DNA of 64,000 nucleotides, from contig NZ_MKVV01000020.1 of the NCBI RefSeq assembly GCF_001899645.1, positions 62,001 through 126,000 on the forward strand, given 5' to 3'. The stretch's first letter is position 1. Each line of letters begins with the position of its first letter. Shown in pieces: positions 33,508 to 52,138 of the stretch. The notes under the pieces were generated by a model. It was not told the origin of the DNA, made no database searches, and saw nothing but the letters and a program-made list of their open reading frames with translations. The stretch is from Pseudonocardia sp. 73-21 (GTDB lineage: Bacteria > Actinomycetota > Actinomycetes > Mycobacteriales > Pseudonocardiaceae). Made by a program: the position numbers and the translations under genes.

Positions 33508-33547
33508 ACGCTACCGCCCTGTCAGGGGTGAGTCCAGCGCCGAACAG

Positions 33548-33589
33548 CGTCGTCAGTCTCTTGACGCCGTCTCTCCTGCGCGGCAATGT
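33548..33589 (+). promoter_or_regulatory. promoter with overlapping operator CGTCA-N6-TGACG
   Basis: TTGACG (33561-33566) and CAATGT (33584-33589) are -35 and -10 candidates 17 bases apart, upstream of the FAD dehydrogenase at 33631. The -35 is embedded in an inverted repeat, CGTCGTCA (33548-33555) / GTCTCT / TGACGCCG (33562-33569), arms matching in seven of eight positions. The 16 bases AGTCTCTTGACGCCGT recur with one change on the minus strand at 48015-48000, again as a -35 region. Confidence 0.55.
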
Positions 33590-33630
33590 CGTCGCCGTCA
33601 TCGTGGCGCAGCTCACCGTGGAGGAAGCCA

Positions 33631-35073
33631 GTGACCGACCTGATCACCGACGTGGTCGTGCTGGGTACGGGTCCGGCGGGCATGGCCGCCGTCTCCGCCG
33701 CCGCGGCCGAAGGGGTAGAGGTCGTGGCCGTCGAGCCGATGCAGCACATCGGCGGCAACGCGGTGTGGTCCACCGGCTACCTCGCCTTCGTCGGCTCGGG
33801 CATGCAGGCCGAGCAGGGCATCGCCGACGACGTCGAGACGTTCGTGCGCGACGCGCGGCACATGGTCGACCTCGCGCAGGACTCGTTCGGCATCGTGTGG
33901 GACGAGGACATCGTCCGCCTCTTCGCCGCCGAGAGCGCCGAGACCTACCGGATCATCACCGAACGGGCCGTGCGGTTCTCGCGGTTCATCCCGCGCCCCC
34001 GTCAGCACACCGTCGACCGGATGGCCGCCATCGAGGACACCTGGATGCTCGCGCGGGCGTTCCAGCCCGACTTCGAACAGCCCACCGTCACGCCGCTGTA
34101 CGGCCATCTCGGTCGCAGGCTGGTGACCGGGGAGGGCCGCGTGACCGGCGTCGTGGTGGCTCCCGTGGACGGTGGGCCCGAGTTCACCGTCACCGCCCGC
34201 TCGGCCGTCGTGCTCGCCGCGGGCGGCTACCAGTCCAACCCGCGGCTGCGGCTGCGCTACCAGCCGGAGTTCGTCGCGAACGGCCCCTACCTGGGTATCG
34301 ACACCTGCAGGGGCGACGGTCATCTCATGGGCCAGGCCGTCGGTGGCGACCTCGTGAACATGACGTTCGTGCCGCCGCTGGTGATCGTCTCCTCGTCGGT
34401 GGTGGAGGACGCGATCGCGGTCAACGCCGCGGGGGAGCGGTTCCACGACGAGGCGGGTCCCTACGAGGAGCGCGTGGCCCGCATGCACGAGCAACCGCAG
34501 CGGCGCGCGCACTACGTGACGGACGCCGTGGTGGCGCAGGAGAAGGCGACGCTGCTCTCGCAGATGCCCGAGCCGTCCGTGGTGGCCGACACCCTGCCCG
34601 AGCTGGCCGCCCTGATCGGGGTGCCCGCCGCCGCGCTGGTCGCCACCGTGGAGCGCTGGAACGCGTTCCTGGCCACCGACGCCACCACCGACCCCGACTT
34701 CGGCCGGGTCGTGCTGCCACCCGGGCGGCGCCGTTGTGCGACCGGTCCGTTCACGGCCGTGCCGATGGTGGAGGGCATCAACTTCTGCTCCGGCGGCTTC
34801 ACCACCACCACCGACATGCAGGTCGTCGACGTGTTCGGCGGACCGATCCCGGGCCTGTTCGCCGCGGGCGACTGCGCCGCCGGACTGAACTCGGTGGCCG
34901 ATCTCGGCGGGATCCACATCAGCGGCGGCCTCACCCTCGGCCGGGTCGCCGGCCGCGCGGCCGCGCGCGGCGTGCACTCCACCGAGCGCCGAGCGGGCGT
35001 CCAGGGCCACGGCCTGCCCAGCATGCTCGACACCAGGATCGCCCTGGTCCACCTCCAGAAGACCCAGTCCTAG
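33631..35073 (+). CDS. FAD-dependent dehydrogenase (FAD-binding-2 family)
   Basis: 480 residues: FAD fold (VVVLGTGPAGMAAVSAA, EPMQHIGGNAVWSTGY), middle domain, and C-terminal GLFAAGDCAAGLNSVADLGG. It belongs with flavoprotein reductases/dehydrogenases such as fumarate reductase and KstD relatives; the YPGxG of KstD is absent. GTG at 33631 is preferred because GGAGGAAG lies five bases before it; an ATG at 33586 in the same frame would fall inside the -10 box. It heads a unit with a luciferase-like oxidoreductase and a Gfo/Idh dehydrogenase. Confidence 0.78.
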   Translation: MTDLITDVVVLGTGPAGMAAVSAAAAEGVEVVAVEPMQHIGGNAVWSTGYLAFVGSGMQAEQGIADDVETFVRDARHMVDLAQDSFGIVWDEDIVRLFAAESAETYRIITERAVRFSRFIPRPRQHTVDRMAAIEDTWMLARAFQPDFEQPTVTPLYGHLGRRLVTGEGRVTGVVVAPVDGGPEFTVTARSAVVLAAGGYQSNPRLRLRYQPEFVANGPYLGIDTCRGDGHLMGQAVGGDLVNMTFVPPLVIVSSSVVEDAIAVNAAGERFHDEAGPYEERVARMHEQPQRRAHYVTDAVVAQEKATLLSQMPEPSVVADTLPELAALIGVPAAALVATVERWNAFLATDATTDPDFGRVVLPPGRRRCATGPFTAVPMVEGINFCSGGFTTTTDMQVVDVFGGPIPGLFAAGDCAAGLNSVADLGGIHISGGLTLGRVAGRAAARGVHSTERRAGVQGHGLPSMLDTRIALVHLQKTQS

Positions 35074-35081
35074 GAGCCCCG

Positions 35082-36101
35082 ATGTCCGTAGGAGTGCTGT
35101 TCACGCAGGGCCTGGTCACGGGCGAGGTGCACCAGACCCTGACCGAGATCCTGGAGCAGGCCGAGGCGGCCGACCGCCTCGGGTTCTCCGCCGCCCTGAC
35201 CACCGAGCACAAGTACTCCGACGAGTACTTCGGCTCACCGCTGCATCTGGCGTACGCGATCGCGGCGCGCACGCAGCGGGTGAAGGTGGGAACGGCCATC
35301 GCCATCGCCCCCCTCTACAACCCGGTCGAGCTCGCGCAGAACGCCGCCGTGCTCGACCAGCTCTCCGGCGGCCGCGCGTGGCTCGGCCTGGGCGTCGGGT
35401 ACATGCCCGTCGACTACTCGACGGTCGGCGTGAGCTGGGACGACCGCGCCCAGCGCTTCGACGAGACGCTGCGCATCCTGCGTGCCGCGTGGACCGAGGA
35501 GCGGTTCTCCTTCGCCGACGCGATCTACGCGTTCGACGACGTCAGCGTGATCCCGAAGCCGAAGCAGGCGGGCGGGGTGCCGCTGCACCTGGCCGCGTGG
35601 ACGCCCGGTGGCATCCGCCGGGCCGGGCGCCTGGGCGACGGCTGGATCACCAACGCGCTCATGTCGCTCGAGACCATGACCGCGATGGCCGGCCGGTACC
35701 GCGAGGCGGCGGCCGCCGAGGGCCGGGAGCCGCACGTCACGTCCATCCGCTTCTGTTGGCCCTACACCTCGCGGGAGGCGGCGCTGGAGAAGTTCGGCGA
35801 CACGGCGCTGGCCATGGCCCGCACGCTGTTCGACTACGGCGCCATCACCGACCTGCCCGGGGTCACCGAGTCCTCCCAGATCACCCTGGAGGAGTTCGTC
35901 AAGGACCGGTTCGTGTTCGGCACGCCCGAGGAGTGCGTCGAGACGATCGGGCGCTTCCGCGACCAGGCCGGCGTCGACGACTTCCTGATGATCTTCCGTT
36001 ACCCGACCGGGCCCGACCACCGGTCCGTCCTCGAGGCCATGGAGCTGTTCGGGACCGAGGTGCTGCCCGCGCTGGAGAAGACACCGGTGAGCGCCTCGTG
36101 A
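35082..36101 (+). CDS. luciferase-like (LLM) flavin/F420-dependent oxidoreductase
   Basis: 339 residues of the LLM TIM barrel: EAADRLGFSAALTTEHKYSDEYFGSPL near the N-terminus, VGTAIAIAPLYNPVELAQNAAVLDQLSGGRAWLGLGVGY near residue 70-105, and a late segment FVFGTPEECVETIGRF. It would use FMNH2 or F420 for oxidation or monooxygenation of an unknown intermediate. A related but distinct LLM protein lies at 54476. TAGGAG lies before the ATG; the downstream GTG overlaps its stop. Confidence 0.82.
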   Translation: MSVGVLFTQGLVTGEVHQTLTEILEQAEAADRLGFSAALTTEHKYSDEYFGSPLHLAYAIAARTQRVKVGTAIAIAPLYNPVELAQNAAVLDQLSGGRAWLGLGVGYMPVDYSTVGVSWDDRAQRFDETLRILRAAWTEERFSFADAIYAFDDVSVIPKPKQAGGVPLHLAAWTPGGIRRAGRLGDGWITNALMSLETMTAMAGRYREAAAAEGREPHVTSIRFCWPYTSREAALEKFGDTALAMARTLFDYGAITDLPGVTESSQITLEEFVKDRFVFGTPEECVETIGRFRDQAGVDDFLMIFRYPTGPDHRSVLEAMELFGTEVLPALEKTPVSAS

Positions 36102-37099
36102 CCCTGCGCGTCGGGGTGGTGGGGGCGAGCTACGCCGTGGGCACCCACCTGCCCGTCTACGCCGCGTCGGACGACGTCGAGCTGGTCGCGGTCGCGACGG
36201 CGCACGAGGACACCGCCCGGGCCGTCGCGGAACGGTTCGGGGCGCGCCCCCACGTGGGCTACGAGGCGCTGTGCGCCGATCCCGACGTCGACCTCGTCGA
36301 CGTCGCGACGCGGCCGAGCCGGCACCGCGAGATGGTGGAGGCGGCGTTCGCCGCCGGCAAGGACGTGCTGTGCGAGGCACCGCTCGCCCCGTCCGTCGCC
36401 GACGGGGAGGCGATGGCGACGGCCGCCGCGTCCGCAGGCCGTTCCGGCTGGGTCGACATGCAGTCGCGGTTCTGGCCGGGACTCCAGGAGCTGCACCGGC
36501 TGGTCGACGACGGGTACCTGGGCACCGTCGAGAACGTCGCCGCCACGGCGTTCTACCCGACGTTCACCCGCCCCGAGGCGGTCGCGGGCTCGGGCTGGTG
36601 CGCCGACGGCGCCTACGGGGCCAGCGCGCTGCGCGTGCACGGGCTGCACACCGCCGACCTGCTGCGCTGGCTGTTCGGCGAGCTCACCGAGGTGCGCGGC
36701 AGCGCCGCGACCAGGCGCTCGGAGTGGCCGGGCGGCGTGCCCGCCACCAGCGCCGACAGCGCGGCGTACACGGCCAGGACCCCCGACGGCGCCGTCTGCT
36801 CGGTGCACGCGTCGTGGGTGGCGCGCCACGGCGAGGGCTGGCGGCTGGCGGTGCACGGCAGCGCCGGCACGCTCGTGGCCACCGCGGCGGGCCACACCGG
36901 CCACTTCCCGGTGACCCTGCGCGGCGCACGGGCCGACGAGCCCGCGTTGCTCGATCTCGTCGCGCCCGGCGACGAGCCCGCCACCACCCCGTTCGCCGAG
37001 CTGGTACGGCGTCTCGCCGCGGGTGGCGCCGGCGTGCCGACCTTCGCCGACGGCATCGCCGCACTGCGGGTGGCCGAGTCCGTGGAGGCCGCCGGATGA
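36098..37099 (+). CDS. Gfo/Idh/MocA-family oxidoreductase
   Basis: 333 residues: N-terminal Rossmann fold with VGVVGASYAVGTHLP and DLVDVATRPSRHREMVEAAFAAGKDVLCEAPLA (the Lys-x-Pro catalytic region reads CEAPLA, so the usual Lys of 'EKP' is Ala). C-terminal alpha/beta domain includes GLHTADLLRWLFGE. Most members oxidise a sugar or cyclitol hydroxyl; the changed EKP motif makes the chemistry uncertain. Start GTG at 36098 overlaps the upstream stop. Confidence 0.78.
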   Translation: MTLRVGVVGASYAVGTHLPVYAASDDVELVAVATAHEDTARAVAERFGARPHVGYEALCADPDVDLVDVATRPSRHREMVEAAFAAGKDVLCEAPLAPSVADGEAMATAAASAGRSGWVDMQSRFWPGLQELHRLVDDGYLGTVENVAATAFYPTFTRPEAVAGSGWCADGAYGASALRVHGLHTADLLRWLFGELTEVRGSAATRRSEWPGGVPATSADSAAYTARTPDGAVCSVHASWVARHGEGWRLAVHGSAGTLVATAAGHTGHFPVTLRGARADEPALLDLVAPGDEPATTPFAELVRRLAAGGAGVPTFADGIAALRVAESVEAAG

Positions 37100-37449
37100 G
37101 CGCCCCGCCCGCGTTCGACCCGTCGCGGCCGACGCCGCCGGGTACTGCACCGCCTTCAGCCCCGGCACCGACGCCGGCGGGAACGAGGGCAACCACGACG
37201 CCGTGGTCGTCGCCCGAGGGCCGCGCCCAGACGGCCGCGGCCGAGCTGGGCGCCCGCTGGCTGGTCGCCGACCTGGCCGATCCCGAGGCCGCGGGCCGGT
37301 TCGTCGCCGTCACCTCGCTCGGGGTGCGCCGGTTGGGCGGCCCCGGGCAGTTCGGCCGCGTCGTCGCGTTCCTGTGCTCCGCACACGCCGACTACGTGAC
37401 GGGCGCAGCGCTGCCGGTCGACGGCGGGGCCTACCAGGCGCTGCTCTGA
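37096..37449 (+). pseudogene. degenerate SDR gene
   Basis: The ATG at 37096 overlaps the upstream stop and starts a frame of 117 codons that is not an intact protein. Its last ~35 residues (FGRVVAFLCSAHADYVTG, then LPVDGGAY) are a normal SDR C-terminus, and RAQTAAAELGARWLVADLADPEAAG is the region around the second Rossmann strand. The stretch NHDAVVVARG, which should precede it, is in another frame, and the nucleotide and active-site motifs are missing. So it is an SDR with a frameshift and an internal deletion. Confidence 0.6.
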
Positions 37450-37499
37450 GCGGTGGTGGGACGATGCACCCCGCGTACTCGGGTGGGAAGGCAGGGGAC

Positions 37500-38396
37500 A
37501 TGTCCCAGCAGAGCGTGATCGACGAGCTGCAGCGTCTCGGCATGTCCGGGTACGAGGCGAAGGCCTACGTGGCGCTGGTGGCGGCGGGCACGCCGCTGAA
37601 CGGCTACGAGGTCGCGAAGCGCTCCGGGGTGCCGCGCAGCACCGTCTACGAGACGCTCGGCAAGCTCGTCGGGCGCGGGGCCGCCTACGAGGTGCGGGCG
37701 GGGGAGGCGAGCGTCGGCTACCTGTCGCTGCCGCCCACGGCCCTGCTCGACCGCATGCGCCGCGAGTTCGACCGCTCCATCGACGCGCTGCGCTCCGCGC
37801 TGCCCGAGGTGGCCTCCCCGCCCCAGGTGCGCCTGGTGCACAGCCTCTCCGACCGCCAGTCGCTGCTCGCCCGGGCGGAGGACGTGATCGCGGCCGCGCA
37901 CACCGACCTGTTCGTCTCGGGCTGGCCGCAGGAGATCGCGCCGCTCAAGCCGCTGGTCCGCCGCGCCTCCGACGAGGGCGTGGACGTCTCCGTCGTGTCC
38001 TTCGGGGCCGACCCCGAGCCCGTCGGCAACACCATCGCGCACACGTTCTCCCAGCCCGAGGTGGTGCTGGAGAACCTCGGCTGCCGCCTGCTGGTGGTCT
38101 CGGCGGACCGCGAGCAGGCCGTGATCGGCGGCGTGGTCAACGGCGACGCGTGGGGCGTGTTCACCGACGACCCGGCCGTCGTGCTCGTCGCCGTCGAGTA
38201 CGTCCGCCACGACATCGCGATGCACCTCATCGCGCAGAAGTTCGACATCGCCGACTTCGAGCAGTTCTGGACGTCCGACCCCGCTATCCGCCGGCTGCGT
38301 TCCGACCACGGGGCACCCGCTGCGGTGCTGCGCCGCGGATCCGGGAGCGCCGGGGCGCCACGCCGTCCGAAGCGCCGCCCGTCCGGTCCGAGCTGA
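37500..38396 (+). CDS. TrmB-family transcriptional regulator
   Basis: 298 residues: N-terminal winged helix (ELQRLGMSGYEAKAYVALVAAG, NGYEVAKRSGVPRSTVYETLGKLV), then a helix and a PLD-like sensor domain (DLFVSGWPQEIAPLKPLVRRASDEGVDVSVVSFG). TrmB-type proteins are sugar or metabolite sensors. ATG at 37500 follows AGGGG; an ATG at 37464 in the same frame is an alternative start. It is the only complete regulator between 16 and 57 kb and so a candidate for the CGTYA-N6-TRACG sites, though none lies in its own promoter. The last 113 bases overlap the convergent MFS gene. Confidence 0.82.
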   Translation: MSQQSVIDELQRLGMSGYEAKAYVALVAAGTPLNGYEVAKRSGVPRSTVYETLGKLVGRGAAYEVRAGEASVGYLSLPPTALLDRMRREFDRSIDALRSALPEVASPPQVRLVHSLSDRQSLLARAEDVIAAAHTDLFVSGWPQEIAPLKPLVRRASDEGVDVSVVSFGADPEPVGNTIAHTFSQPEVVLENLGCRLLVVSADREQAVIGGVVNGDAWGVFTDDPAVVLVAVEYVRHDIAMHLIAQKFDIADFEQFWTSDPAIRRLRSDHGAPAAVLRRGSGSAGAPRRPKRRPSGPS

Positions 38397-39606
38397 CGCC
38401 GGAGCCGACGGCCCGGCACCGGGTGAACGTGGCGGCGCCGCAGAGCACCAGCGCGAGCGACATCGTCCAGGCGGGGACGTAGCCACCGGTCGCGTCGACC
38501 ACCGCGCCGAACACCGGGGCCCCGACCAGCGCGCCCACGTAGTAGCCCGCCATCGTCACGCCCGAGGCCCGGCCCACCGCGTGCGGTGCCGCCGCCACGA
38601 CGGCGGCGTGCATGAGCCCGATCGCCGAGAGCTGCGCGACGGTCGCGACGACCACACCGGCGACCATGACGGGCACGCCCGCGGCGGTCCCGGCGACCAG
38701 GAGGGCCTCGCCCGCCGCCGTGCCCACACACAGCGTGACGACGGCCGGGATCCGGCTCCCACCGGCCGTCCGGCCGGCGGCGACGCGGTCGGAGCGCCGG
38801 GCCACCACCACCATCGCGACGACGGCCGCGACCGAACCGGCGGCGGTGACGCTGCCGGCGACCGGCAGCTCCAGGCCGCCCACCTCGTGCAGGTACGCGA
38901 CCGTCCACGAGTACAGCGGCTGCGAGCCCGCCACGAGGCAGAACGCGCCGACCGGGAACCACAGGAAGCCGCGCGGGAGCACCCGGACCGGCGCGGCGGG
39001 GTCGGTCCGGCGCGGGGAGCGGCCGTCCGGGAGCACCCACAGCGCAGCCGCCGCGACCAGCAGCACGACCGGCACGGTCGCGAGGTACACCGCACGCCAC
39101 CCGAAGGCCTCCCCGGCCGCGGCCGCGAGTGGCGCCGACACCGCGACGAGGACGGGCACGCCCGCGGTCTTCGTCGCGAGCGCCACCCCGTGCCCGCGCA
39201 CCGGCACGGCGACGGAGACGGCCAGGTTCGTGCCGGCGTTGGTGAGCGCGTACCCGAACCCGGCGACCACGGCGCCCGCGAGCAGCACCGGGTAGACCGG
39301 GAACAGCGCGCCGACGACCAGCGCGCCCGCGACCAGCACCTGGTCCAGCGCGACCGCGCGGCGCGCTCCCATCCGGTCGGTCAGCCTGCCCGCGACCGGT
39401 GACCCGACGCCCGTCGCGCCGTAGAACACCCCGACGAGGATGCCCAGGGCCGTCCGCGACAGGTCGAGATCGGCCTGCAGCACCGGTGCGAGGAAGCCGG
39501 GGACGAACCCGAGGTAGGCACCCAGCCCGGTGGCGAGGGTGCTGACCGCGACGGTGGCCCGCGGGCGCAGGATCGTCCCGGGCGGGGCGGCCTCGGGCGG
39601 GGTCAC
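38284..39606 (-). CDS. MFS transporter, copy 2
   Basis: 440 residues with about 12 membrane segments (GILVGVFYGATGVGSPVAGRLTDRMGARR near residue 50 is the MFS A-motif region). Closely related to the transporter at 23686. GTG at 39606 is the first start after the upstream stop at 39612; no clear ribosome site. The last ~38 residues, rich in Arg and Gly, are encoded antisense to the end of the TrmB gene. Probably exports or imports a pathway compound. Confidence 0.8.
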   Translation of the reverse strand: MTPPEAAPPGTILRPRATVAVSTLATGLGAYLGFVPGFLAPVLQADLDLSRTALGILVGVFYGATGVGSPVAGRLTDRMGARRAVALDQVLVAGALVVGALFPVYPVLLAGAVVAGFGYALTNAGTNLAVSVAVPVRGHGVALATKTAGVPVLVAVSAPLAAAAGEAFGWRAVYLATVPVVLLVAAAALWVLPDGRSPRRTDPAAPVRVLPRGFLWFPVGAFCLVAGSQPLYSWTVAYLHEVGGLELPVAGSVTAAGSVAAVVAMVVVARRSDRVAAGRTAGGSRIPAVVTLCVGTAAGEALLVAGTAAGVPVMVAGVVVATVAQLSAIGLMHAAVVAAAPHAVGRASGVTMAGYYVGALVGAPVFGAVVDATGGYVPAWTMSLALVLCGAATFTRCRAVGSGVSSDRTGGASDGVAPRRSRIRGAAPQRVPRGRNAAGG

Positions 39607-39611
39607 CCGCG

Positions 39612-40376
39612 TCAGGCGTTCGTGACGCCGAGGGAGAGCCCGCCGTCGATCGTCAGCACGGCACCCGTGGCCCACTCGGCCTTCGCCAGGTACTCGACGG
39701 CCTCCGCGACCTCGTCGGGCGTGCCGCTGCGGCCCAGCGCGTGTGCGGTGTCCAGCCCGCGCATCCGCTCGGCCGCCTCGGCGTCGTCGAAGAGGCCGGC
39801 CCGCTGGTTGATCTCGGTGAGCACCCCGCCGGGGCGCACGCAGCTCACCCGCACCCCCTGTGGGCCCAGCTCGGCCGCCAGCACGCCCGTCAGGGCCTCC
39901 AGCGCGCCCTTCGTGGCCGCGTAGGGCGACGCGCCGGGGAACGCGCGCTGGGTGTGCACCGAGCCGAAGAACACGACGGCTCCGCGGCTCCGGCGCAGGT
40001 GCGACAGGGCGAGGCCGGTCAGCAGCATCGGCGCGATCGTGTTGGAGGTGAACACGTCGACGAGGGATGCCTCGTCGAGCTCGTCCAGCTTGCCCCGGTA
40101 CATGTTCCCCGCTCCGTGCACGAGCAGTTCCAGCCCACCGCCGTGCTCGACGGCGGCGTCGAGCATCCGCTGCCTGTCCGCGGCCACCGAGACGTCGCCC
40201 GCGACGGCCAGCGCGCCCGGACCGGCCCGTTCGGCCACCTCGGCCACCCGCTCGGCCCGCCGGCCCGAGAGGGTCACGCGGGCCCCGCCGGCGACCAACC
40301 GCGCCACCACGGCCGCGCCGATCCCCGAACCGCCGCCGGTGACGAGCACGGACATGCCCTTGATCTCGCGGGTCAC
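39612..40376 (-). CDS. SDR dehydrogenase
   Basis: 254 residues: TGGGSGIG near residue 13, SGRR (NADP-type), HGAG in the NNAG place, Ser in FFGSVHTQ and YAATK near 153, RPGGVLTE, ending GAVLTIDGG. GTG at 40376 overlaps the upstream stop by four bases and has GGAGG four to five bases before it, better than the internal ATG at 40355. Middle gene of a three-gene unit with the ThuA-like protein and the MFS transporter. Confidence 0.8.
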   Translation of the reverse strand: MTREIKGMSVLVTGGGSGIGAAVVARLVAGGARVTLSGRRAERVAEVAERAGPGALAVAGDVSVAADRQRMLDAAVEHGGGLELLVHGAGNMYRGKLDELDEASLVDVFTSNTIAPMLLTGLALSHLRRSRGAVVFFGSVHTQRAFPGASPYAATKGALEALTGVLAAELGPQGVRVSCVRPGGVLTEINQRAGLFDDAEAAERMRGLDTAHALGRSGTPDEVAEAVEYLAKAEWATGAVLTIDGGLSLGVTNA

Positions 40377-41053
40377 TGATCCTCCAGAAGCCAGGCGATG
40401 CAGCGGTCCAGGATCGCGCGGTGCTCCGGCACGGCGTAGGAGGGCGGGTGGTGGCCCAGCGCGTCGTAGACCACGCGCCCTCCGCCGTGCTCGCGCGCCC
40501 ACAGCAGCGGCTGCCCGTCCGAGACGAGCAGCGGCTCCAGGTCGGCGGCGAGATCCAGCTCGCTGTAGCACTCGTCGACGATCGGGAAGCCGGACACGCC
40601 CGCGACGAACGGGTGCTCCGCCGCCGCGATCCCGACCACCATCTCCCCGAGCGGCGGGTGGAACGACGAGCCCCACCGCCACGCGCCACCCACAGCCGCA
40701 GCCCATTCCGGCCAGTCGTCGAAGCAGATCGCGGCGGTGTGCATCGCGAGCACGCTCCCTCCGCCCCGCAGGTGTGCCGCGAACGCGGCGCGGGCCTCGG
40801 GGGCGGGGCTCACGCCCTCCTGCGCCGCCCGGTCCCGGTAGCGGTCGGGCGTGCCGGGGCCGGCCATCGTCCAGCGCAGCGCGTTGACGACGAACAGGTC
40901 GGCACCGCTCAGCGCCCGGAACGCGGCGTCGACGTCCTCCTGCACCTCCGACTCGACCCCGTGGGCCGCCAGAACCTCCCGCAGACAGCTCGTGGTCGCC
41001 GGGAAGTCGTGGGTCGGACCCCCCGACAGGACGACCGCTCGTCGTGGCGCCAC
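40373..41053 (-). CDS. ThuA-domain protein
   Basis: 226 residues of the ThuA/class I glutamine amidotransferase-like fold: AVVLSGGPTHDFPATTSCLREVLAAHG at the start, DLFVVNALRW near residue 58, GGGSVLAMHTAAICFDDW near 98, and GGGRVVYDALGHHPPSY near 190. ThuA proteins appear in sugar and glycoside catabolism without a proven activity. GTG at 41053 is selected by GAGGAGG five bases upstream. It is divergent from the SDR at 41178 across a perfect palindrome. Confidence 0.75.
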   Translation of the reverse strand: MAPRRAVVLSGGPTHDFPATTSCLREVLAAHGVESEVQEDVDAAFRALSGADLFVVNALRWTMAGPGTPDRYRDRAAQEGVSPAPEARAAFAAHLRGGGSVLAMHTAAICFDDWPEWAAAVGGAWRWGSSFHPPLGEMVVGIAAAEHPFVAGVSGFPIVDECYSELDLAADLEPLLVSDGQPLLWAREHGGGRVVYDALGHHPPSYAVPEHRAILDRCIAWLLEDQ

Positions 41054-41090
41054 GGGGACCTCCTCGTCCGGAATCCATGTCCAGGGAATG

Positions 41091-41110
41091 GACGTTAGGA
41101 ATCTAACGTC
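41091..41110. promoter_or_regulatory. perfect 20-bp operator-like palindrome
   Basis: GACGTTAGGAATCTAACGTC: two perfect 8-base arms around a 4-base centre, midway between divergent starts at 41053 and 41178. Written as CGTTA-GGAATC-TAACG (41093-41108) it fits CGTYA-N6-TRACG. It is likely the binding site of a dimeric repressor controlling both directions. Confidence 0.65.
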
Positions 41111-41177
41111 GCTTCTCTTCTCACAGCAAGCTCCGGGCAGTAGCGTCTCTCCCGGTACACCGATGAGGGGGCTGAGC

Positions 41178-41969: not shown

Positions 41970-41971
41970 CG

Positions 41972-43960: not shown

Positions 43961-44765
43961 GGTCGGCTCCCAGGTAGGCCTCGACGACGACGGGATCGCG
44001 CAGGACGTCCTTCGGTGCGCCCGACTGGATGATCCGTCCGAAGTGCAGGACGGCGGCGGTCGGGCACAGGCGCGTGATGAGCTCCAGGTCGTGCTCGATG
44101 ATGAGCACCGCCGCGTCGGGACGCTCGCGCAGCCAGCCGTTGAGGCCGTCGACGAGGTGGTCGACGTCCTCGGCGCCCAGGCCGGCGGCGGGCTCGTCGA
44201 GCATCAGCAGGGCCGGGTCGTTCAGCAGCGCCCGGGCCACCTCGATGATCTTCTGGCTGCCGATCGGGAACGCGTTCGCCGGCCGGTCGGGGTGCGCACC
44301 CAGGCCGAGGGCGTCGAGCAGGTCGTAGGCGCGTTCGCGCTGCTCCCGCTCGTCCCGGCGGGCCGAGGGCAGGCCGAGGAGCTCCGCCAGGTGTCCGCGG
44401 CGGAAGTGCCGGGAGCCGCCGACCATCACGTTCTCGACGGCCGACAGGTTGGGGATCAGCCGCGGGGTCTGGAAGGTGCGGGAGACGCCGCGGCGGGCGA
44501 CCCGCGCGGGGGAGAGGCCGAGCACGCTCTCCCCGCGCAGCGTCACGTCCCCGGCGTCGGGCTGCAGGTAGCCGGAGACCACGTTGAGGCAGGTGGTCTT
44601 CCCGGCGCCGTTGGGCCCGATCAGGCCGGTGAACCCGGGCCGCACGGCCAGCGTGACGTTCTCCAGCACCGTGTTGCCGCCGAACGACTTGCCCACGCCG
44701 GTGAACTCGACGACCGGGGTGTCCCCGGCGTGCCGGGGCACGGTCTCCGGTGCGGTGGCCGTCAT
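43944..44765 (-). CDS. livG: Liv-type ABC transporter ATPase LivG, system 2
   Basis: 273 residues: Walker A GPNGAGKTTC near residue 53, Q-loop TFQTPRLIPNLSAVENV, LivG-type signature region NAFPIGSQKIIEVARA where LSGGQ is replaced, Walker B LLMLDEPAAGL and H-loop IEHDLEL. ATG at 44765 after GAGGAG; overlaps the LivM stop by four bases. Contrast the fused LivM-LivG of system 1. Confidence 0.9.
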   Translation of the reverse strand: MTATAPETVPRHAGDTPVVEFTGVGKSFGGNTVLENVTLAVRPGFTGLIGPNGAGKTTCLNVVSGYLQPDAGDVTLRGESVLGLSPARVARRGVSRTFQTPRLIPNLSAVENVMVGGSRHFRRGHLAELLGLPSARRDEREQRERAYDLLDALGLGAHPDRPANAFPIGSQKIIEVARALLNDPALLMLDEPAAGLGAEDVDHLVDGLNGWLRERPDAAVLIIEHDLELITRLCPTAAVLHFGRIIQSGAPKDVLRDPVVVEAYLGADLAAGD

Positions 44766-45844
44766 GACGTCTCCTCGGTGGAGGCCCGCCGCCGGTACAG
44801 CCGCTGCGCGAACCGGGAGCTGCCGAGGGTGCGGAAGAGTGAGGTCAGCCCGCCCGGCAGGAGGGCGATGACGACCATCAGCACGATGCCGTAGGCGATG
44901 GCCTGCGCGTCGCCGAGATCCTGGAAGAACTCGATCAGCACGATCGCGAACGCGGCCCCGATGAGCGGGCCCCACAATGAGCCCGCACCGCCGACGAACA
45001 CCATGACCAGCATCGGGACCAGCAGGTTCATCTGGAACATCGCCGGGAAGATGAAGGTCTGCAGCTGCGCGTAGAGCGTGCCCGCCACCGCCGCGACGAA
45101 CCCGGAGAGCGCGAACGCCACCAGCCGGTACCGCAGCGCCGAGACGCCCAGCGAGCCGGAGAGCTGGCCGAGGTCCCGCACCGCCTGCAGCGTCCGGCCG
45201 AACCGGCCGACGAGCGCGCGGCGCACCAGGAAGAACATGATCGCCGCGACGGTGAGCACGATGAAGTAGGTCGATGCGGCGTCGTTGATGCCCGGCAGGG
45301 CGAAGACCTGCACGTTCATCCCGCCGCCACCACCGGTGATCGGCGCCGCGAAGTTCAGGAGCTCGACGATCGCCATGCCCAGCGCCAGCGTGGCGATGGC
45401 GAGGAAGAACCCGCGCAGCCGGATTGCGGGAAAGCCGATCACCACCGCGAGCAGCGCGGCGGCGATGCCCGCGAGCGGGATCGTCACCAGGAACGGCACA
45501 CCGGCGGCGACCGCGACCGAGCTGCCGTAGGCGCCGACGGCGAACAGCGCCGCGTGCGCCAGGCCGATCTGCCCCGACCAGCCGACGAGCAGGTTGAACC
45601 CGAGCGTCGAGACCGCGTAGACGAGCGTGAGGCTGACGACGAACACGACGTAGGTGTTCGAGACGAACGGCAGGGCGAAGAGCAGGACCAGCGCCACGAT
45701 CGCGACGATGCCCTTGCGCAGGCCGGAACCGCGCCGCGCCGCGTGTCCCGCGGCTCCGTTGGCGGTGATGCCCGCCGTGACCGCGGCCGGCAGGGCCGAT
45801 GGCGCCTCGGCGGGCGCGGCGGGCTGCGTGGTCAGCTCAGACAT
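44762..45844 (-). CDS. livM: Liv-type ABC transporter permease LivM, system 2
   Basis: 360 residues. A hydrophilic Ala-rich N-terminus of ~45 residues precedes the membrane part with about nine to ten segments; LLVGWSGQIGLAHAALFAVGAYG and PAIRLRGFFLAIATLALGMA are typical LivM motifs, and FVGGAGSLWGPLIGAA is the late conserved loop. Overlaps livH by eight bases. Confidence 0.9.
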   Translation of the reverse strand: MSELTTQPAAPAEAPSALPAAVTAGITANGAAGHAARRGSGLRKGIVAIVALVLLFALPFVSNTYVVFVVSLTLVYAVSTLGFNLLVGWSGQIGLAHAALFAVGAYGSSVAVAAGVPFLVTIPLAGIAAALLAVVIGFPAIRLRGFFLAIATLALGMAIVELLNFAAPITGGGGGMNVQVFALPGINDAASTYFIVLTVAAIMFFLVRRALVGRFGRTLQAVRDLGQLSGSLGVSALRYRLVAFALSGFVAAVAGTLYAQLQTFIFPAMFQMNLLVPMLVMVFVGGAGSLWGPLIGAAFAIVLIEFFQDLGDAQAIAYGIVLMVVIALLPGGLTSLFRTLGSSRFAQRLYRRRASTEETS

Positions 45845-46700
45845 CGCGCAACCTCATCCCCTTCGTGAAACCGTCGGGCCGCAGGACCAGCACCAGGAAG
45901 ACCACCAGCAGCGCGACCGAGAACTGCGCGGCCGTCGAGATGTAGGTCCCGACGAGCTGCTGGATGATCCCGAGCACGAGCCCGCCCGCGAACGTGCCGA
46001 ACAGGGAGGTGAACCCGCCCATGGTCGCGGCGACGAACCCGTAGATGATCAGCGACGCGGGGGTGAGCGTGGAGACCAGCGCCGACTGCGCCTGCAGCAT
46101 CACGGTGACGGCCGCGATCAGCCCGCCGACGCCCCACGCGATCGCCGAGAGCCGTCCCGCGTTGACCCCGACCAGCCGGGCCGTGGCGCGGTTCTCCGCG
46201 ACGGCCCGCATCTGCGCCCCCACCGGGGTGGTGAAGAACGCGCTGATCGCGACCGCGCCGAGCAGGCCGACGACGATCGAGACGATCTGCGAGACACCGA
46301 TCGCGACACCGCCGCCGACCTCGATCGCCGCGCCCGTCCACGGGGCCCGGAAGCTGCGGGGGTCGTGCCCCCAGACCAGGCCGGTCAGCGCGGTGAGTGC
46401 CAGCGAGAGCCCGATCGTCATGAGCAGCAGGGGGAAGTGCCCGTACTTCGCCAGGCGGCGCATCAGGGCGACGTCGATGACGACACCCAGCAGGATGCCC
46501 GTGACGAGCGTGGTCACCACCGCCAGCCAGAACGGGACACCCGCTCCGGCCAGCGATATACCGACATAGGTCGCGACGAGACCGATGTCGGCCATGGCGA
46601 AGTTCGGCACGTCGGCCGCCTTCATGACCACGACGATCGCGAGGCCGAGCAGGGCGAACCAGCTCCCGGACTCGAGCCCGCTGACGAGTGTCTGCAACAC
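45837..46700 (-). CDS. livH: Liv-type ABC transporter permease LivH, system 2
   Basis: 287 residues, about eight membrane segments, LivH pattern (SGLESGSWFALLGLAIVVVMKAADVPNFAMADIG). GTG start at 46700 with AGGAGG eight bases upstream, 20 bases after the binding-protein stop, so the order binding protein-H-M-G-F follows the usual operon. Confidence 0.9.
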   Translation of the reverse strand: MLQTLVSGLESGSWFALLGLAIVVVMKAADVPNFAMADIGLVATYVGISLAGAGVPFWLAVVTTLVTGILLGVVIDVALMRRLAKYGHFPLLLMTIGLSLALTALTGLVWGHDPRSFRAPWTGAAIEVGGGVAIGVSQIVSIVVGLLGAVAISAFFTTPVGAQMRAVAENRATARLVGVNAGRLSAIAWGVGGLIAAVTVMLQAQSALVSTLTPASLIIYGFVAATMGGFTSLFGTFAGGLVLGIIQQLVGTYISTAAQFSVALLVVFLVLVLRPDGFTKGMRLRDV

Positions 46701-46719
46701 GTGAGATACCTCCTGCGGC

Positions 46720-47937
46720 TCAGGTCCCGGATCCCTCGGGCGCCATGAACGGCTGCTCGACGACCCACTTCCCGCCGGTGTACTTCGCGATGCCGGCCTG
46801 GCGGGCGCACGTGTGGCCGGTCGGCAGGGGGCCGCACTGGATGTCGGGGATCGACCCGAGCTTGATCGGGTTGCTCGCGAGGCCTTCGGCGGTCCTGGTG
46901 AAGTTCGCGTAGGACACGTCGTCGCCCATCCGCTTCACCAGCTCGGCGAACGCCATGACGTAGCTGTAGGTCTGCAGTGAGAAGCCGCTGGTGCCCTGGT
47001 CGCCCTGGTACTTCTGGGCCAGCGAGCGCCAGTGCTCGACGGCGGGGTTGTCGGTCGAGACGGTGTCGGACTGCATGCCGCCGAGGAAGCCCTCGGCCGC
47101 CGCACCGGCCGGCTTGACCGTGCTGGGGCCACCGGTACCGGCGGCACCCTGGTCGGCGAACACCGGGCCGGTGAAGCCCTGGGCGCGCAGCTGCTTGAGG
47201 ATCAGCGCCGAGGACGTGTTGTCCTCGGCGAGCAGCACGGCGTCGGGCTTCTGCGCCATCACGTTGTTGACCGCCGAGCTGACCTCGGTGCTGCCCGTCT
47301 GCGTGGTCTCGTTGGCCACGACCTGCATGTCCGGGTGCTTGGGCATCTGCGTGTCGAGCGCCAGCTTCGCCGAGACCCCGAGGTCGTTGTCCTGCCGGAT
47401 CACCCCGAGGCGCTTGGCGCCCTTCTTGGCGAAGTAGTCGATCGCGACCTGGTCCTGGCTCGCCCGGGTGGCCGAGAGCAGGTAGACCTCGCTCTGCTTC
47501 GGGTCCGCGGGGGAGATCGGGCCCCACATCGGCGTCTTGTTCTGGGCGAGGAACTGCCACGTGCCGGGCAGGCCCTGGGATCCCGCGGGCGCCACGATCG
47601 CGTAGACCTTCTCCTGCGAGACCAGCCGCCGCACGTTGGTGACCACGCGGTCGGGCGTGAAGCCGTCGTCGAGGATGATCGCGTTCACCTTGCGGCCGTT
47701 GATGCCGCCCCGGGAGTTCAGCTCGTCGACGGCGATCTTGATGCCGGCCTGCAGGCCCTGCCCGGAGACCGCGGCGGTGCCGGTGAGCGGCAGGGTGGCG
47801 CCGATCGTGATCTGGTCCTTCGTGATCCCGGGCGGCGGGGCGGAGTCCGATGATCCCGAGCTGGCGACGTTCCCGCACGCCGTGGCGAGCAGGGCCGCGG
47901 CCGCTGCCACCGCGATCAGGAGGGGGTTGCGAAGCAT
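46720..47937 (-). CDS. ABC transporter substrate-binding lipoprotein, system 2
   Basis: 405 residues with a lipoprotein signal: MLRNPLLIAVAAAAALLATAC, lipid-anchored Cys near residue 21. The mature protein has ITIGATLPLTGTAAVSGQGLQAGIKIAVDELNSRGGINGRK, the Liv binding-protein pattern. ATG at 47937 is selected by GAGGAG five bases upstream. It shares little with the system 1 binding protein beyond the fold, so the two importers likely take different compounds. Confidence 0.87.
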   Translation of the reverse strand: MLRNPLLIAVAAAAALLATACGNVASSGSSDSAPPPGITKDQITIGATLPLTGTAAVSGQGLQAGIKIAVDELNSRGGINGRKVNAIILDDGFTPDRVVTNVRRLVSQEKVYAIVAPAGSQGLPGTWQFLAQNKTPMWGPISPADPKQSEVYLLSATRASQDQVAIDYFAKKGAKRLGVIRQDNDLGVSAKLALDTQMPKHPDMQVVANETTQTGSTEVSSAVNNVMAQKPDAVLLAEDNTSSALILKQLRAQGFTGPVFADQGAAGTGGPSTVKPAGAAAEGFLGGMQSDTVSTDNPAVEHWRSLAQKYQGDQGTSGFSLQTYSYVMAFAELVKRMGDDVSYANFTRTAEGLASNPIKLGSIPDIQCGPLPTGHTCARQAGIAKYTGGKWVVEQPFMAPEGSGT

Positions 47938-47980
47938 CGGGACTCCTCGTCGAGTCAGTGTGACGTGGGCGACTCGGGGC

Positions 47981-48021
47981 AATCTATGGCGAGAGATTTA
48001 CGTCGTCAAGAGACTAACTAC
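47981..48021 (-). promoter_or_regulatory. promoter of liv system 2 with overlapping operator
   Basis: On the minus strand, -35 TTGACG (48009-48004) and -10 TAGATT (47986-47981) are 17 bases apart, the best-formed promoter of the window. It drives the binding-protein gene at 47937. CGTCA-AGAGAC-TAACT (48004-48019, plus strand) fits CGTYA-N6-TRACG with one mismatch and covers the -35. The promoter overlaps the end of the upstream hydroxyacid dehydrogenase gene. AGTCTCTTGACGACGT here matches 33555-33570 in 15 of 16 bases. Confidence 0.65.
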
Positions 48022-49191
48022 GCCCGATGCGAAATCGCGACTGAGTGCGGTCTCGTCGAGGCTCGCCACGCCGGGCCGTCCGATGAGGGCGAGAGTGCGG
48101 TCGATCTCGTCGCGCAGGATCTCCAGGACCCGTTCGACACCGGGGGTGCCGCCCGCCGCGAGCCCGTAGACCCAGGGCCGCCCGACGAGACACGCCTTGG
48201 CGCCGAGCGCGAGGGCCTTCACGACGTCCCCGCCGCGCCGGACCCCGCCGTCGAGCAGCACGTCGGCGAGGTGGCCGACCTCGGCGACCACCTCGGGCAG
48301 AGCGTCGAGCGCCGCCGGTACCGAGTCGGCCTGGCGCCCGCCGTGGTTGGACACCGCGACCCCCTGACAACCGGCCTCGACGGCCAGCCGCGCGTCGTCG
48401 GCCGTCATGACGCCCTTCAGCAGCACCGGACCGTCGAAGCGGCGGATCATCCACTCCAGGTCCCGCCAGGTGGTCGCGGGGTTGAGCAGGCCGTTGGTGT
48501 GGGCCGCCAGACCGCTGGTGCCCCTCGCGTCGGGCATGAGCCCGACGAAGTTGGCGTAGGTCGGCCGCGGGTGGGAGAGCAGGCCCGCGAGCCACGCCGG
48601 GTGGCGCACGAGGTCCCAGCCGGTGCGCGGGCTCACCTCGGGTGGCACGGTGAGCCCGTTGCGCAGGTCCTTCTCCCGGGCACCGACGACCGGCACGTCC
48701 ACGGTCACGACCATCGCCTCGTAGCCGCTGTCCCGCGCGCGGCCGATGAGGTTCTCGACGGTGCGCCGGTCGCCCCACGGGTAGAGCTGGAACCACTGGG
48801 GCGACGTGACCGACGCCGCGACGTCCTCCAGCGACACGCTCGACCCGGAACTCTGCACCGACACGGTGCCGAAGCGCTCCGCGGCGGCCGCGGCGGCCAG
48901 TTCGCCCTCGTGGCGCACCATGCGCATCAGGCCCGTCGGGCCGAGCACCACCGGTGTCGCCAGCTCCCGGCCCAGCACCGTGACCGCCTGCGGCCGCTCG
49001 CTCACGTCCACGAGCACCCGCGGGCGGAACGTCAGCCGGCGGAAGGCGGCCTCGTTGTCGTCGCGGGTCAGCTCGTCCTCCGCGCCGCCGTCGACGAAGT
49101 CGAACACCATGCGCGGCAGCCGCCTGCGCGCCGCGGCGCGCAGGTCGGCGATGGTGACGGCCCCGCCCCGCCGGCCTCCGGGCACCGTCAT
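47998..49191 (-). CDS. FMN-dependent alpha-hydroxyacid dehydrogenase
   Basis: 397 residues of the glycolate oxidase/lactate and mandelate dehydrogenase family: FDFVDGGAEDELTRDDNEAAF near the N-terminus, WFQLYPWGD with the active-site Tyr, VSNHGGRQ with the catalytic His near residue 283, and DGGVRRGGDVVKALALGA with the phosphate-binding Arg. It oxidises a 2-hydroxyacid to the 2-oxoacid. ATG at 49191 overlaps the aldolase stop by four bases, so the two steps are linked: the aldolase may make or use the hydroxyacid or its aldehyde. Confidence 0.86.
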   Translation of the reverse strand: MTVPGGRRGGAVTIADLRAAARRRLPRMVFDFVDGGAEDELTRDDNEAAFRRLTFRPRVLVDVSERPQAVTVLGRELATPVVLGPTGLMRMVRHEGELAAAAAAERFGTVSVQSSGSSVSLEDVAASVTSPQWFQLYPWGDRRTVENLIGRARDSGYEAMVVTVDVPVVGAREKDLRNGLTVPPEVSPRTGWDLVRHPAWLAGLLSHPRPTYANFVGLMPDARGTSGLAAHTNGLLNPATTWRDLEWMIRRFDGPVLLKGVMTADDARLAVEAGCQGVAVSNHGGRQADSVPAALDALPEVVAEVGHLADVLLDGGVRRGGDVVKALALGAKACLVGRPWVYGLAAGGTPGVERVLEILRDEIDRTLALIGRPGVASLDETALSRDFASGVVSLLTT

Positions 49192-49958: not shown

Positions 49959-50038
49959 CGGCTCCTCCTCGCCGGCGGCCGCCAGGGCGCGGCGGCCTCG
50001 CCTGGAGAGGGAGGCTAGCCCGATGTCGGGTGACGGCG

Positions 50039-50050
50039 CTAGGCTCCTAG
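50039..50050. promoter_or_regulatory. small palindrome in a divergent promoter region
   Basis: CTAGGCTCCTAG is a 5+2+5 perfect inverted repeat in the 148-base space between the aldolase (minus) and PanE-like (plus) genes. It is flanked by TGACG at 50031 and 50051. An AT-rich stretch follows (ATGTTTTTGT). No member of the CGTYA-N6-TRACG set was found here, only its half-site. Confidence 0.3.
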
Positions 50051-50106
50051 TGACGTATCTAGGGTCATGTTTTTGTCCACTCTGCTGGCGCGACGGAGGG
50101 TGTCGC

Positions 50107-51051
50107 ATGGCGATGAGGATCGGCGTGCTCGGGGCCGGCGGGATGGGTACGGCGTTCGCCGCGCACCTCGCCGCGGCCGACGCGGACGTGGTGCTGATCG
50201 GACGCGGCAGCGCTCACGTGCGGTCGCTGGCCGGGCGGCCGGTGGAGGTCGTGCCCCCGCACGGGGATCCGTGGCGCGTGACCGTCCCCGTCGCCGGGCA
50301 CCCCGCGGACGTCCCGCCCGGCCGCCTCGACGTGCTGCTCGTGCTGACGAAGGCCTACGACCTCGACGCGGCCCTGCGGTCCGCCGCGCACACGCTCGGG
50401 TCCGGCGGGGTCGCGGTGCCGCTGCAGAACGGGCTCGGCACCGACGCCGTCGTGGCCGACGTCGTCGGGGACGGTCGGACCCTGGTCGGCACCACGACGG
50501 TCGGCGCCGCACTCGCCGAGCCCGGCCGGATCACGGTCTCGATGTCGACGGCCGCCGGCGAGTCGCTGACCAGCATCGGGCGCATGGGCCGGGCGGCGGG
50601 TGATCTCGCCACCGGCGCCGACGTCGCGGAGCTGCTGACGAAGGTGGGCCTGCCCACCGAGGTGACCCCGGCCGTCGCCGAGCTGGTCTGGGGCAAGCTC
50701 GCCCTCGCCGCGATGAGCCCGCTCAGCTGCGTCCCGCGTGTCACCGTCGCGGAGGTCTGGGGCAGCGCCGAAGGGCGCGCGCTGGTGGAGCGGATGTTCG
50801 ACGAGGTCGTCGCGGTCGCCGCCGCCGAGGGCGTGCCGCTCGACCGGGATGCCGCGTGGGCGCACGCCCGGCGCACGTTCGAGGGCACGGGCGAGCACTA
50901 CACGTCGATGTGCACCGATGTGCGCCTCGGACGGCCGACCGAACTGGGCGTCATGGGCGGTGCGGTGCGGGCGCTGGGGGAGCGGCACGGGGTACCCGTG
51001 CCGGTGCACGCCACGGTCTGCGACCTGCTCGGGCTCGCGGGCGTGCGCTGA
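50107..51051 (+). CDS. ketopantoate reductase (PanE/ApbA)-family protein
   Basis: 314 residues: N-terminal NADP site IGVLGAGGMGTAFAAHLA, LTKAYDLDAAL and PLQNGLGTDAVVAD, then the C-terminal helical domain with VWGKLALAAMSPL holding the conserved catalytic Lys. In this setting it is more likely a paralogue acting on a pathway 2-oxoacid than the pantothenate enzyme. GGAGGG lies six to seven bases before the ATG at 50107. The stop overlaps the next start by one base. Confidence 0.8.
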   Translation: MAMRIGVLGAGGMGTAFAAHLAAADADVVLIGRGSAHVRSLAGRPVEVVPPHGDPWRVTVPVAGHPADVPPGRLDVLLVLTKAYDLDAALRSAAHTLGSGGVAVPLQNGLGTDAVVADVVGDGRTLVGTTTVGAALAEPGRITVSMSTAAGESLTSIGRMGRAAGDLATGADVAELLTKVGLPTEVTPAVAELVWGKLALAAMSPLSCVPRVTVAEVWGSAEGRALVERMFDEVVAVAAAEGVPLDRDAAWAHARRTFEGTGEHYTSMCTDVRLGRPTELGVMGGAVRALGERHGVPVPVHATVCDLLGLAGVR

Positions 51052-52052
51052 TGCGTGCGGCCGTGACGAGCGCGCCGGGCCGGATCGCCGTCGAGACCGT
51101 GGCCGACCCCGACCCGGGGCCGGGCGACGCGGTGCTCGACGTCGGTGCGGTCGGGCTCTGCGGCACCGATCTGCACATGTACCTGGGGGAACGGCACGAC
51201 ACCGGCTTCCCGTTGCGGCAGGGCCACGAGCTCGGGGGCACCGTCGCGGCGCTCCCACGCGGGTACGCGGGCTCGCTGCGGCTCGGGCAGACCGTCACCG
51301 TCGACCCGGCGATCCCGTGCGGTCGCTGCCGGCCGTGCCGGCGAGGGCGGTGGCCCGCGTGCCGCTCGTTCCGCGCTCTCGGCGTGGCGCTGCCCGGCGG
51401 GCTGGCCGACCAGGTCGTCGTCCCGGTCGGGCAGCTGCACGACGCCGACGGGCTCTCGGCCGTCGAGGCGGCGCTGGTCGAGCCGTTCTCGATCGCGGCG
51501 ATGGCGCTGGCGCGGGCCGAGCTCGTGGGCGACGAGCGCGTCCTCGTGGCCGGTGGTGGGCCGATCGGCCTGGCCGTCACCGTCGCCGCCGTGGCCGCCG
51601 GGCACGCCGTGCTGGTCTGCGATCCGCTGCCGGCGCGGCGCACGCTCGCGTCCGAGCTGGGTGCCGACGCCGTGTGCGCACCGGCCGAGCTCGCCGACAC
51701 CGTGGCGGAGTGGACCGGTGGGGCGGGCACCGACGTGGCCGTCGAGGCGTCCGGCACGCGTTCCGCCCTGGACGCGGCGCTCGCGGCCGTCGGGGCCGGC
51801 GGGCGGCTCGTGGTGGTCGGGGTCGCGGCGCACGACCTGGTGGTGCCGGTGCCACGGGTCCTGTTCGACGGCGTGACCATCGTCGGTGCCCGGGCCGGGC
51901 TCTTCCCGCAGGCGCTGTCGGTGGTCGCGGCTCACCGTGGTGAGGTCGCCCGGTTCGCGAGCGTCGTGTACCCGCTGGAGGACGTCGCCGCGGCGTTCAC
52001 GCACGCGATCGAGCGGCCGGACGCGGTCGTGAAGGTGATGGTGGCCCGGTGA
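51051..52052 (+). CDS. zinc-dependent medium-chain alcohol dehydrogenase
   Basis: 333 residues: catalytic zinc ligands in GLCGTDLHMY near residue 37 and GHELGG near 61, a structural-zinc lobe with four Cys in PCGRCRPCRRGRWPAC near 85, and the Rossmann motif VAGGGPIGLAV near 165. Threonine/sorbitol dehydrogenase-like. It oxidises a secondary alcohol with NAD(P). Translationally coupled to the PanE-like gene, so both may act on the same compound. Confidence 0.87.
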   Translation: MRAAVTSAPGRIAVETVADPDPGPGDAVLDVGAVGLCGTDLHMYLGERHDTGFPLRQGHELGGTVAALPRGYAGSLRLGQTVTVDPAIPCGRCRPCRRGRWPACRSFRALGVALPGGLADQVVVPVGQLHDADGLSAVEAALVEPFSIAAMALARAELVGDERVLVAGGGPIGLAVTVAAVAAGHAVLVCDPLPARRTLASELGADAVCAPAELADTVAEWTGGAGTDVAVEASGTRSALDAALAAVGAGGRLVVVGVAAHDLVVPVPRVLFDGVTIVGARAGLFPQALSVVAAHRGEVARFASVVYPLEDVAAAFTHAIERPDAVVKVMVAR

Positions 52053-52088
52053 CACGGCGCTGTGCCAGACTGCTGGTCACCCGCTAGT

Positions 52089-52104
52089 CGTCAGTTAACT
52101 GACG
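52089..52104 (+). promoter_or_regulatory. operator-like palindrome CGTCA-N6-TGACG
   Basis: CGTCAGTTAACTGACG is a perfect 16-base palindrome 34 bases before the ATG at 52139. It fits CGTYA-N6-TRACG exactly and so joins the sites at 33551, 41093 and 48004. It lies where a repressor would block the block E operon. Confidence 0.65.
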
Positions 52105-52138
52105 TCGCTTCGACGACGAAGATCAGGAGGCGGAGATC

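Follow-up and report, generated by a model that had tools for sequence, protein, structure and literature searches.

Why does the same inverted repeat recur four times within 18.5 kb of a Pseudonocardia genome, each time close to a different group of genes, and which protein reads it? The question is raised by a 64,000-nucleotide stretch of Pseudonocardia sp. 73-21 (contig NZ_MKVV01000020.1, positions 62,001 to 126,000), referred to here as the window. The initial annotation of this DNA had described a repeat CGTYA-N6-TRACG at four places and had proposed that one dimeric regulator governs a regulon at 33-57 kb; it named a TrmB-like protein encoded at 37500 as a candidate, and held that a TetR- or MarR-type protein located elsewhere would fit at least as well. 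Comparison with related genomes makes it very probable that the four palindromes are operators of a single homodimeric winged-helix regulator of the TrmB family, encoded within the cluster itself at 37500-38396.

The probable operator and its distribution

The four repeats are real and lie where they had been placed, and the last of them (site 4, 52089-52104) is the perfect 16-bp palindrome that it was said to be. Some details of their form have to be revised. Site 2, described as a perfect 20-bp palindrome, actually consists of perfect 8-bp arms (GACGTTAG and CTAACGTC) flanking a non-palindromic GAAT, and sites 1 and 3, said to share 15 of 16 bases, share 14 once site 3 is taken in minus-strand orientation. 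The pattern CGTYA-N6-TRACG describes sites 1, 2 and 4 and fails at site 3, where an outer base deviates (TAACT). As a motif it was rejected, since besides missing site 3 it occurs at 41 places in the 7.09-Mb genome, and one of its four matches in the window (33167-33182, 9 bits) lies within a P450 gene, the other three being noted sites. The putative operator is better described as an extended 24-bp palindrome, close to TCGTCGTYAG-N4-CTRACGACGA. Conservation reaches beyond the 14 bp by which the sites were selected: with the arms of 37 sites pooled, G at position -3 is kept in 96%, C at -1 in 99% and T at -2 in 53%.

Within this 24-bp frame operator 1 (33547-33570, plus strand, 27.0 bits) lies between the divergent P450 and FAD-dehydrogenase operons, and operator 2 (41089-41112, no strand assigned, 27.3 bits) between the divergent ThuA and SDR genes. 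Operator 4 (52085-52108, plus strand) has the top score of the window, 32.2 bits, and stands 31 bp before the amidohydrolase operon. Operator 3 (48000-48023, minus strand, 24.1 bits) is indeed ahead of the liv importer, 63 bp before the binding-protein gene, but it is placed inside the last codons of an FMN-dehydrogenase gene (47998-49191, minus strand). A TTGACG -35-like box is covered by sites 1 (33561-33566) and 3, as the initial annotation had it; at operator 3 the promoter reads, on the minus strand, as -35 TTGACG (48004-48009), N17 and -10 TAGATT (47981-47986), with the operator lying over the -35. A weak second operator may be present by the P450 start (33488-33511, minus strand), where the score is 8.9 bits with a matrix free of window sites and 10.1 bits with the other matrix; the equivalent position in relatives scores 18.4 (G192, G203), 16.2 (G169) and 15.9 bits (G037).

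Could such a repeat be a matter of chance, or a coincidence with the promoter consensus around the TTGACG that two of the sites contain? The form GTYAGNNNNYTRAC (GTYAG-N4-YTRAC), tighter than the initial pattern, is found at 30 places in the genome, of which the four in the window are exactly the four noted sites; the corresponding Poisson probabilities, 1.8e-4 for 64 kb and 1.5e-6 for the 18.5 kb, are biased because the motif was defined from these very sites. Of the other 26 places, 20 are within called genes and six outside. The stricter form GNCGTYAGNNNNYTRACGNC is more telling, with four places in this genome (three in the window and one on contig C71) against none for a reversed control, and 42 places across 28 genomes against three for the control, one each in three genomes. 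The motif was also retrieved by a de novo dyad count.

Scoring relied on 37 sites picked by a window-derived pattern, from which a coding match (G243A 9518) was dropped and among which two sites in the 3'-terminal part of a preceding gene (window 48005, G192A 30475) were retained by hand. The neighbourhoods taken were those of 13 of the 16 close orthologues found in other genomes (without G075, G151 and G250), all seven of the 55-65% homologues and one of three remote ones (without G009 and G060). The matrix that includes the window and C71 sites was used for conservation upstream of genes, for the 23 loci of close homologues and the 57 more distant ones, and for the matches reported from G229, G169, G192, G212 and C71. 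A 32-site matrix without the window and C71 sites was used for the ranking within the window, the identity classes, the gene content of distant loci, the count of regulator operons and the test on 15 loci. With this second matrix the four sites rank first in the window (24.1-32.2 bits), and the next match scores 9.2.

Around the close homologues the comparison of intergenic with coding DNA, which had been proposed as a check, is clearly one-sided. The 23 loci hold 69 matches of at least 18 bits, three per locus, with none in Markov sequences, and 66 of the 69 are intergenic, although intergenic DNA makes up about 12% of these loci (54,522 of about 451,000 bases). Eight of the 23 belong to training genomes; in the 15 that do not, the matrix without window and C71 sites gives 42 matches, 40 of them intergenic, in 13 loci.

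The sites also precede the same gene families in relatives, as the second proposed check had asked. Over 23 stretches (21 homologue neighbourhoods, the window and the C71 locus), with proteins clustered at 50% identity, a site of at least 15 bits stands upstream of the P450 family in 13 of 13 loci, the SDR in 11 of 14, ThuA in 10 of 12, the amidohydrolase in 9 of 11 and the FAD dehydrogenase in 7 of 8, and without exception upstream of the liv binding protein (3/3), the MFS transporter (6/6) and the molybdenum hydroxylase (5/5). In G192, for instance, a 29.8-bit site accompanies an amidohydrolase that is 88% identical, and a neighbouring ADH gene has a site of 25.8 bits. Set against the conservation, the intergenic bias and the reversed controls, an origin of the repeat in chance or in the promoter consensus has a negligible probability.

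The TrmB-like protein and its linkage to the sites

What kind of protein is encoded at 37500-38396? The gene (plus strand; the open frame was called from 37464, and the conserved MSQQS start is at 37500) closes the FAD-LLM-Gfo unit that follows operator 1, and its predicted product is a TrmB-family protein. The TrmB winged-helix DNA-binding domain is present (PF01978, 7.7e-16, 58.2 bits against a cut-off of 25.6), and after the linking helix the effector domain matches Regulator_TrmB (1.6e-6, 28.0 bits against a cut-off of 22.2). Among structures in the PDB the sequence matches 3qph at 2.8e-12, and an AlphaFold2 model (pLDDT 84.6) has archaeal TrmB and TrmBL2 as its top structural matches, 2f5t with a Z score of 15.5 and a root-mean-square deviation of 2.0 over 119 residues. 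The likeness does not extend over the whole of the archaeal protein: the second effector subdomain, a beta-barrel with the sugar contacts, has no counterpart, structural alignments stop at TrmB residue 239, and past residue 257 the model has helices only, the last part at low confidence. Scores against the NCBIfam TrmB equivalogs are 22-46 bits, compared with cut-offs of 500-650. Because the match ends before the sugar-contact subdomain, sugar sensing of the archaeal type is not supported. The closest named homologues, among the best 80 of 276 loci, are from Pseudonocardia; P. dioxanivorans CB1190, for example, has an orthologue at 84% identity.

The association between operator and protein can be followed across the family. 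Matches to the product at E 1e-20 occur in 26 of 297 genomes of the family, with close orthologues at 75-84% identity, others at 55-65% and three at 33-37%. The search for strict sites covered 12 of the 17 genomes with a close orthologue, six with a more distant homologue only and ten with no match, and found them in 11, two and one of these, respectively (Fisher P 3.4e-4). By hand count, 32 of the 37 strict places in the 12 close-orthologue genomes are no more than 50 kb from a homologue or its remnant, and two of the remainder, both in G229, are on a different contig, surrounded by the same catabolic genes. The TrmB-like regulator is present in all 14 close neighbourhoods, the window included, and in 11 of these its own operon is behind a site of at least 18 bits.

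Further evidence comes from the survey of named genomes, which comprised 80 loci, the best of 276. At least one match of 18 bits or more is present in 21 of 23 loci with a homologue of at least 75% identity, in six of 36 at 55-66% and in 12 of 21 below 55%. The 57 more distant loci together have 25 such matches, 23 of them intergenic, where 0.33 would be expected. A 15-bit site no more than 330 bp upstream of the regulator is found in three loci of the closest class, in none at 55-66% and in nine of the 21 below 55%; these nine amount to seven distinct cases, since L187 and L188 are identical there, as are L196 and L198. The homologues of distant Actinobacteria with a site directly upstream are 48-53% identical to the window protein. 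Some distant loci (Geodermatophilus, Gordonia) share the catabolic genes, and L176, L178 and L196 share few of them on the stretches analysed. The candidacy of the 37500 product is strongly upheld by co-localisation, by operators before its own operon and by operators directly upstream of its distant homologues; conservation ahead of orthologues, with a strict form nearly confined to the cluster, likewise bears out the idea of one regulator for the 33-57 kb regulon.

The 55-66% class, mainly Actinomadura and Streptosporangium, is mostly without the motif, and its operator probably differs. An operator shared by these homologues was sought by dyad count and rejected; the count gave CTTGACTG-N-CAGTCAAG in Pseudonocardia. 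This dyad is found in 12 scanned loci, three of which are close-homologue loci without the main motif, and in eight of the 12 a gene start lies 103-162 bp away; the one such gene that was scanned (L092) encodes a Peptidase_S9 protein of 670 amino acids. The perfect 17-bp palindrome CTTGACTGSCAGTCAAG stands near Pseudonocardia TrmB homologues at another locus (L092:3500, L105, L106, L109, L110, L115, L116, L134, L138, L142, L144 and L146). A further candidate, GTTAGGAA-N3-TTCCTAAC in three Streptosporangium loci, fits the CsnR box and belongs to another system; GTTAGGAAACTTTCCTAAC-type boxes at L143:4457, L145:848 and L157:1315 in the same genus resemble the CsnR chitosanase operator of Streptomyces. 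A dyad GTTCGA-N8-TCGAAC is intergenic in 13 of 21 Actinomadura and Spirillospora loci (L155-L192), possibly as part of a tRNA gene or as another operator. Finally, a protein of about 1150-1190 amino acids is encoded near the regulator in other Actinobacteria (L187:6196-9777, and similarly in L156, L180, L196 and L199); that of L187 belongs to the indolepyruvate ferredoxin oxidoreductase family, and the other four were matched to it by length and similarity only.

Proposed mode of action and competing explanations

How might the protein act on these sites? One DNA-binding domain of the predicted dimer would occupy each GTYAG arm together with the conserved outer G and C, which accounts for a site of 24 bp. 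Bound there, the protein would block RNA polymerase, a mode proposed because at operons 1 and 4 the -35 box lies under the site, and five or six operons for transport and catabolism, the regulator's own among them, would be shut off; a compound of the pathway, bound in the effector domain, would then release the protein from its operator. In the simplest reading the protein would repress these operons, its own included, until a metabolite of the pathway relieves the repression. It is directly established that the sites exist, that they are conserved and that they are linked in the genome to the regulator family and to its own promoter, and from this we infer binding by a dimer of this protein, repression in preference to activation, negative autoregulation and an inducer derived from the pathway.

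A number of observations weigh against this picture. Since the cluster is inherited as a unit, co-localisation by itself does not identify the regulator. G212 encodes a 79%-identical orthologue and has no strict site anywhere in its genome and no match of at least 9 bits within 40 kb; ahead of the regulator operon in G098 and G212 there is no site of at least 10 bits, and in G042 there is a weak one only (11.2 bits). Two close loci, L134 (a 10.9-kb piece) and L138, have no motif matches, and 30 of the 36 loci of 55-66% homologues have no site of at least 18 bits. Conversely, G139 and G082, with distant homologues only, and G122, with none, together contain five strict places, and of three far strict places in G169 two are inside genes and one is intergenic. 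In the window no convincing -35/-10 pair was found at the site of operons 2, 3 and 5, and site 1 is followed by a poor -10.

The lack of a clear promoter overlapping the site at operons 2, 3 and 5 would suit a TrmB-like protein that binds the sites and mainly activates, or does both, like archaeal TrmBL1; archaeal members are described as repressing, activating or doing both according to the position of the site (PMC4158304). Sites 1 and 3, by contrast, cover a -35 box, and in the TTGACG-N17-TAGATT promoter of site 3 this is the usual place of a repressor, so that a mainly activating or dual role appears rather unlikely, though it keeps some weight. In another explanation the sites belong to one unlinked regulator of TetR, MarR, GntR or ROK type, with the TrmB-like gene merely travelling along. 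Palindrome geometry names no family, the operator of the ROK repressor CsnR in Streptomyces contains GTTAGGAAACTTTCCTAAC, a related half-site with another spacer (PMC3048496), and a GntR/FCD regulator is encoded in the window at 15153-15878. Against an unlinked protein, no other regulator was recognised in the 26 most shared families (24 scanned against the library and two, each in three loci, judged by eye), a survey that in this genome covered essentially the part of the window from 28 kb onwards; among the called genes at 32.3-56.6 kb none had a Pfam match to TetR or MarR, and 42711-43256 matched nothing. Moreover, in distant Actinobacteria, some of which (L176, L178, L196) share few cluster genes on the stretches analysed, the sites immediately precede the regulator gene, and they accompany even a decayed copy of it on contig C71. 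An unlinked regulator is accordingly improbable, and the TetR or MarR protein that had been thought to fit at least as well is, as far as sequence can tell, not favoured over the TrmB-like protein of the cluster.

The proposed regulon and its place among known systems

What would such a regulator control? The P450 gene (32279-33466, minus strand) is divergent from operon 1 (33631-37449, plus strand), which encodes an FAD_binding_2 dehydrogenase, an LLM monooxygenase, a Gfo/Idh/MocA oxidoreductase and an SDR remnant (37096-37449) directly before the regulator. The last 39 amino acids of the remnant are 72% identical to the end of an intact SDR of 244 amino acids in G192, and another part is 45% identical to the early part of the SDR at the same position in G192; since the G192 operon also has a P450 and a ferredoxin that the window lacks there, a local deletion in the window is likely. 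Operon 2 (38284-41053, minus strand) comprises ThuA (40373-41053), an SDR (39612-40376) and an MFS transporter (38284-39606), and operon 3 (41178-42727, plus strand) an SDR (41178-41969) and a xylose-isomerase-like (AP_endonuc_2) protein. Operon 4 (42711-47937, minus strand) encodes an ABC importer of the branched-chain amino acid type, with a binding protein that resembles the leucine/isoleucine/valine type, two permeases and two ATPases, and a small gene (42711-43256, minus strand) with no family match. Operon 5 (52139-56645, plus strand) encodes Amidohydro_1, Amidohydro_2, LLM, SnoaL_4 and SDR proteins, the Amidohydro_2 protein resembling ACMSD decarboxylases.

Contig C71 holds a likely member of the regulon beyond the 33-57 kb span. 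A second TrmB-like copy there is decayed (L038:6705-7053, G000 C71:97705-98053), with 60 amino acids matched and a stop, and around it are operator-like sites at 10102 (30.8 bits), 6378 (18.3) and 9207 (16.2) of L038; the strict site of C71 is about 3 kb from the decayed copy. One of the six non-genic GTYAGNNNNYTRAC places, C71:101107, stands 51 bp ahead of a gene for a molybdenum hydroxylase. Taken together, the families of the regulon are P450s, FAD and molybdenum hydroxylases, LLM monooxygenases, SDRs, two amidohydrolases, SnoaL- and ThuA-like proteins and liv and MFS transport, a predicted content that points to the import and degradation of an organic substrate. The P450 had no PDB match at 1e-20, and of 20 window proteins compared with NCBIfam one passed its cut-off, a generic FAD-binding dehydrogenase (58517-60187) outside the five operons, with no substrate named.

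The TrmB family and its regulatory logic are already known, as are bacterial TrmB-like proteins; what differs here is the operator, the host domain and the reduced effector domain. TrmB of Pyrococcus furiosus (3qph, 2f5t) has the same winged-helix domain, linking helix and effector-domain fold and likewise uses palindromic operators at catabolic and transport operons. On a motif reading, not an alignment, its DNA-contact pair Y50-D51 appears as Y62-E63 here, whereas the operator is GTYAG-N4-CTRAC in place of TACT-N3-AGTA, the second subdomain with the sugar contacts Asn305, Gly320 and Glu326 described for TrmB has no counterpart (PMC4158304), and the host is bacterial. TrmBL1/Tgr, associated with the Thermococcales glycolytic motif, offers the same arrangement of one TrmB-family protein, many operons and a shared palindrome, but its motif is TATCAC-N5-GTGATA and it is described for sugar metabolism and archaeal promoters (PMC4158304). 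CsnR, the ROK chitosanase repressor of Streptomyces, has the half-site GTTAGG...CCTAAC in an actinobacterial repressor operator, and differs in family and in spacer (GTTAG-N9-CTAAC; PMC3048496). SCO3388 of Streptomyces coelicolor is another actinobacterial protein described as TrmB-like, and as affecting cell wall integrity and spore viability, in a description that includes no operator (PMC8594442). In the open-access literature searched, no described operator of a bacterial TrmB was found; PMC8700777 uses the letters for a cyclodextrin product.

This may well be the first case of a bacterial TrmB subfamily with a defined operator and regulon, in which an archaeal-type fold without the sugar-contact subdomain would sense a metabolite of a P450/molybdenum-hydroxylase/amidohydrolase/ThuA pathway conserved in Actinobacteria, one that ranges from Pseudonocardia and Actinomycetospora to Nonomuraea, Gordonia, Geodermatophilus and acidimicrobial relatives. 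A precise operator is thereby matched to a regulator from a family for which the open-access papers searched describe archaeal operators. As the operator marks the members of an actinobacterial degradation pathway, it offers a route to the substrate of that pathway: any compound able to dislodge the protein from a 24-bp probe would be expected to be one of the pathway's metabolites. The pair of regulator and operator is also a potential inducible switch for high-GC actinomycetes.

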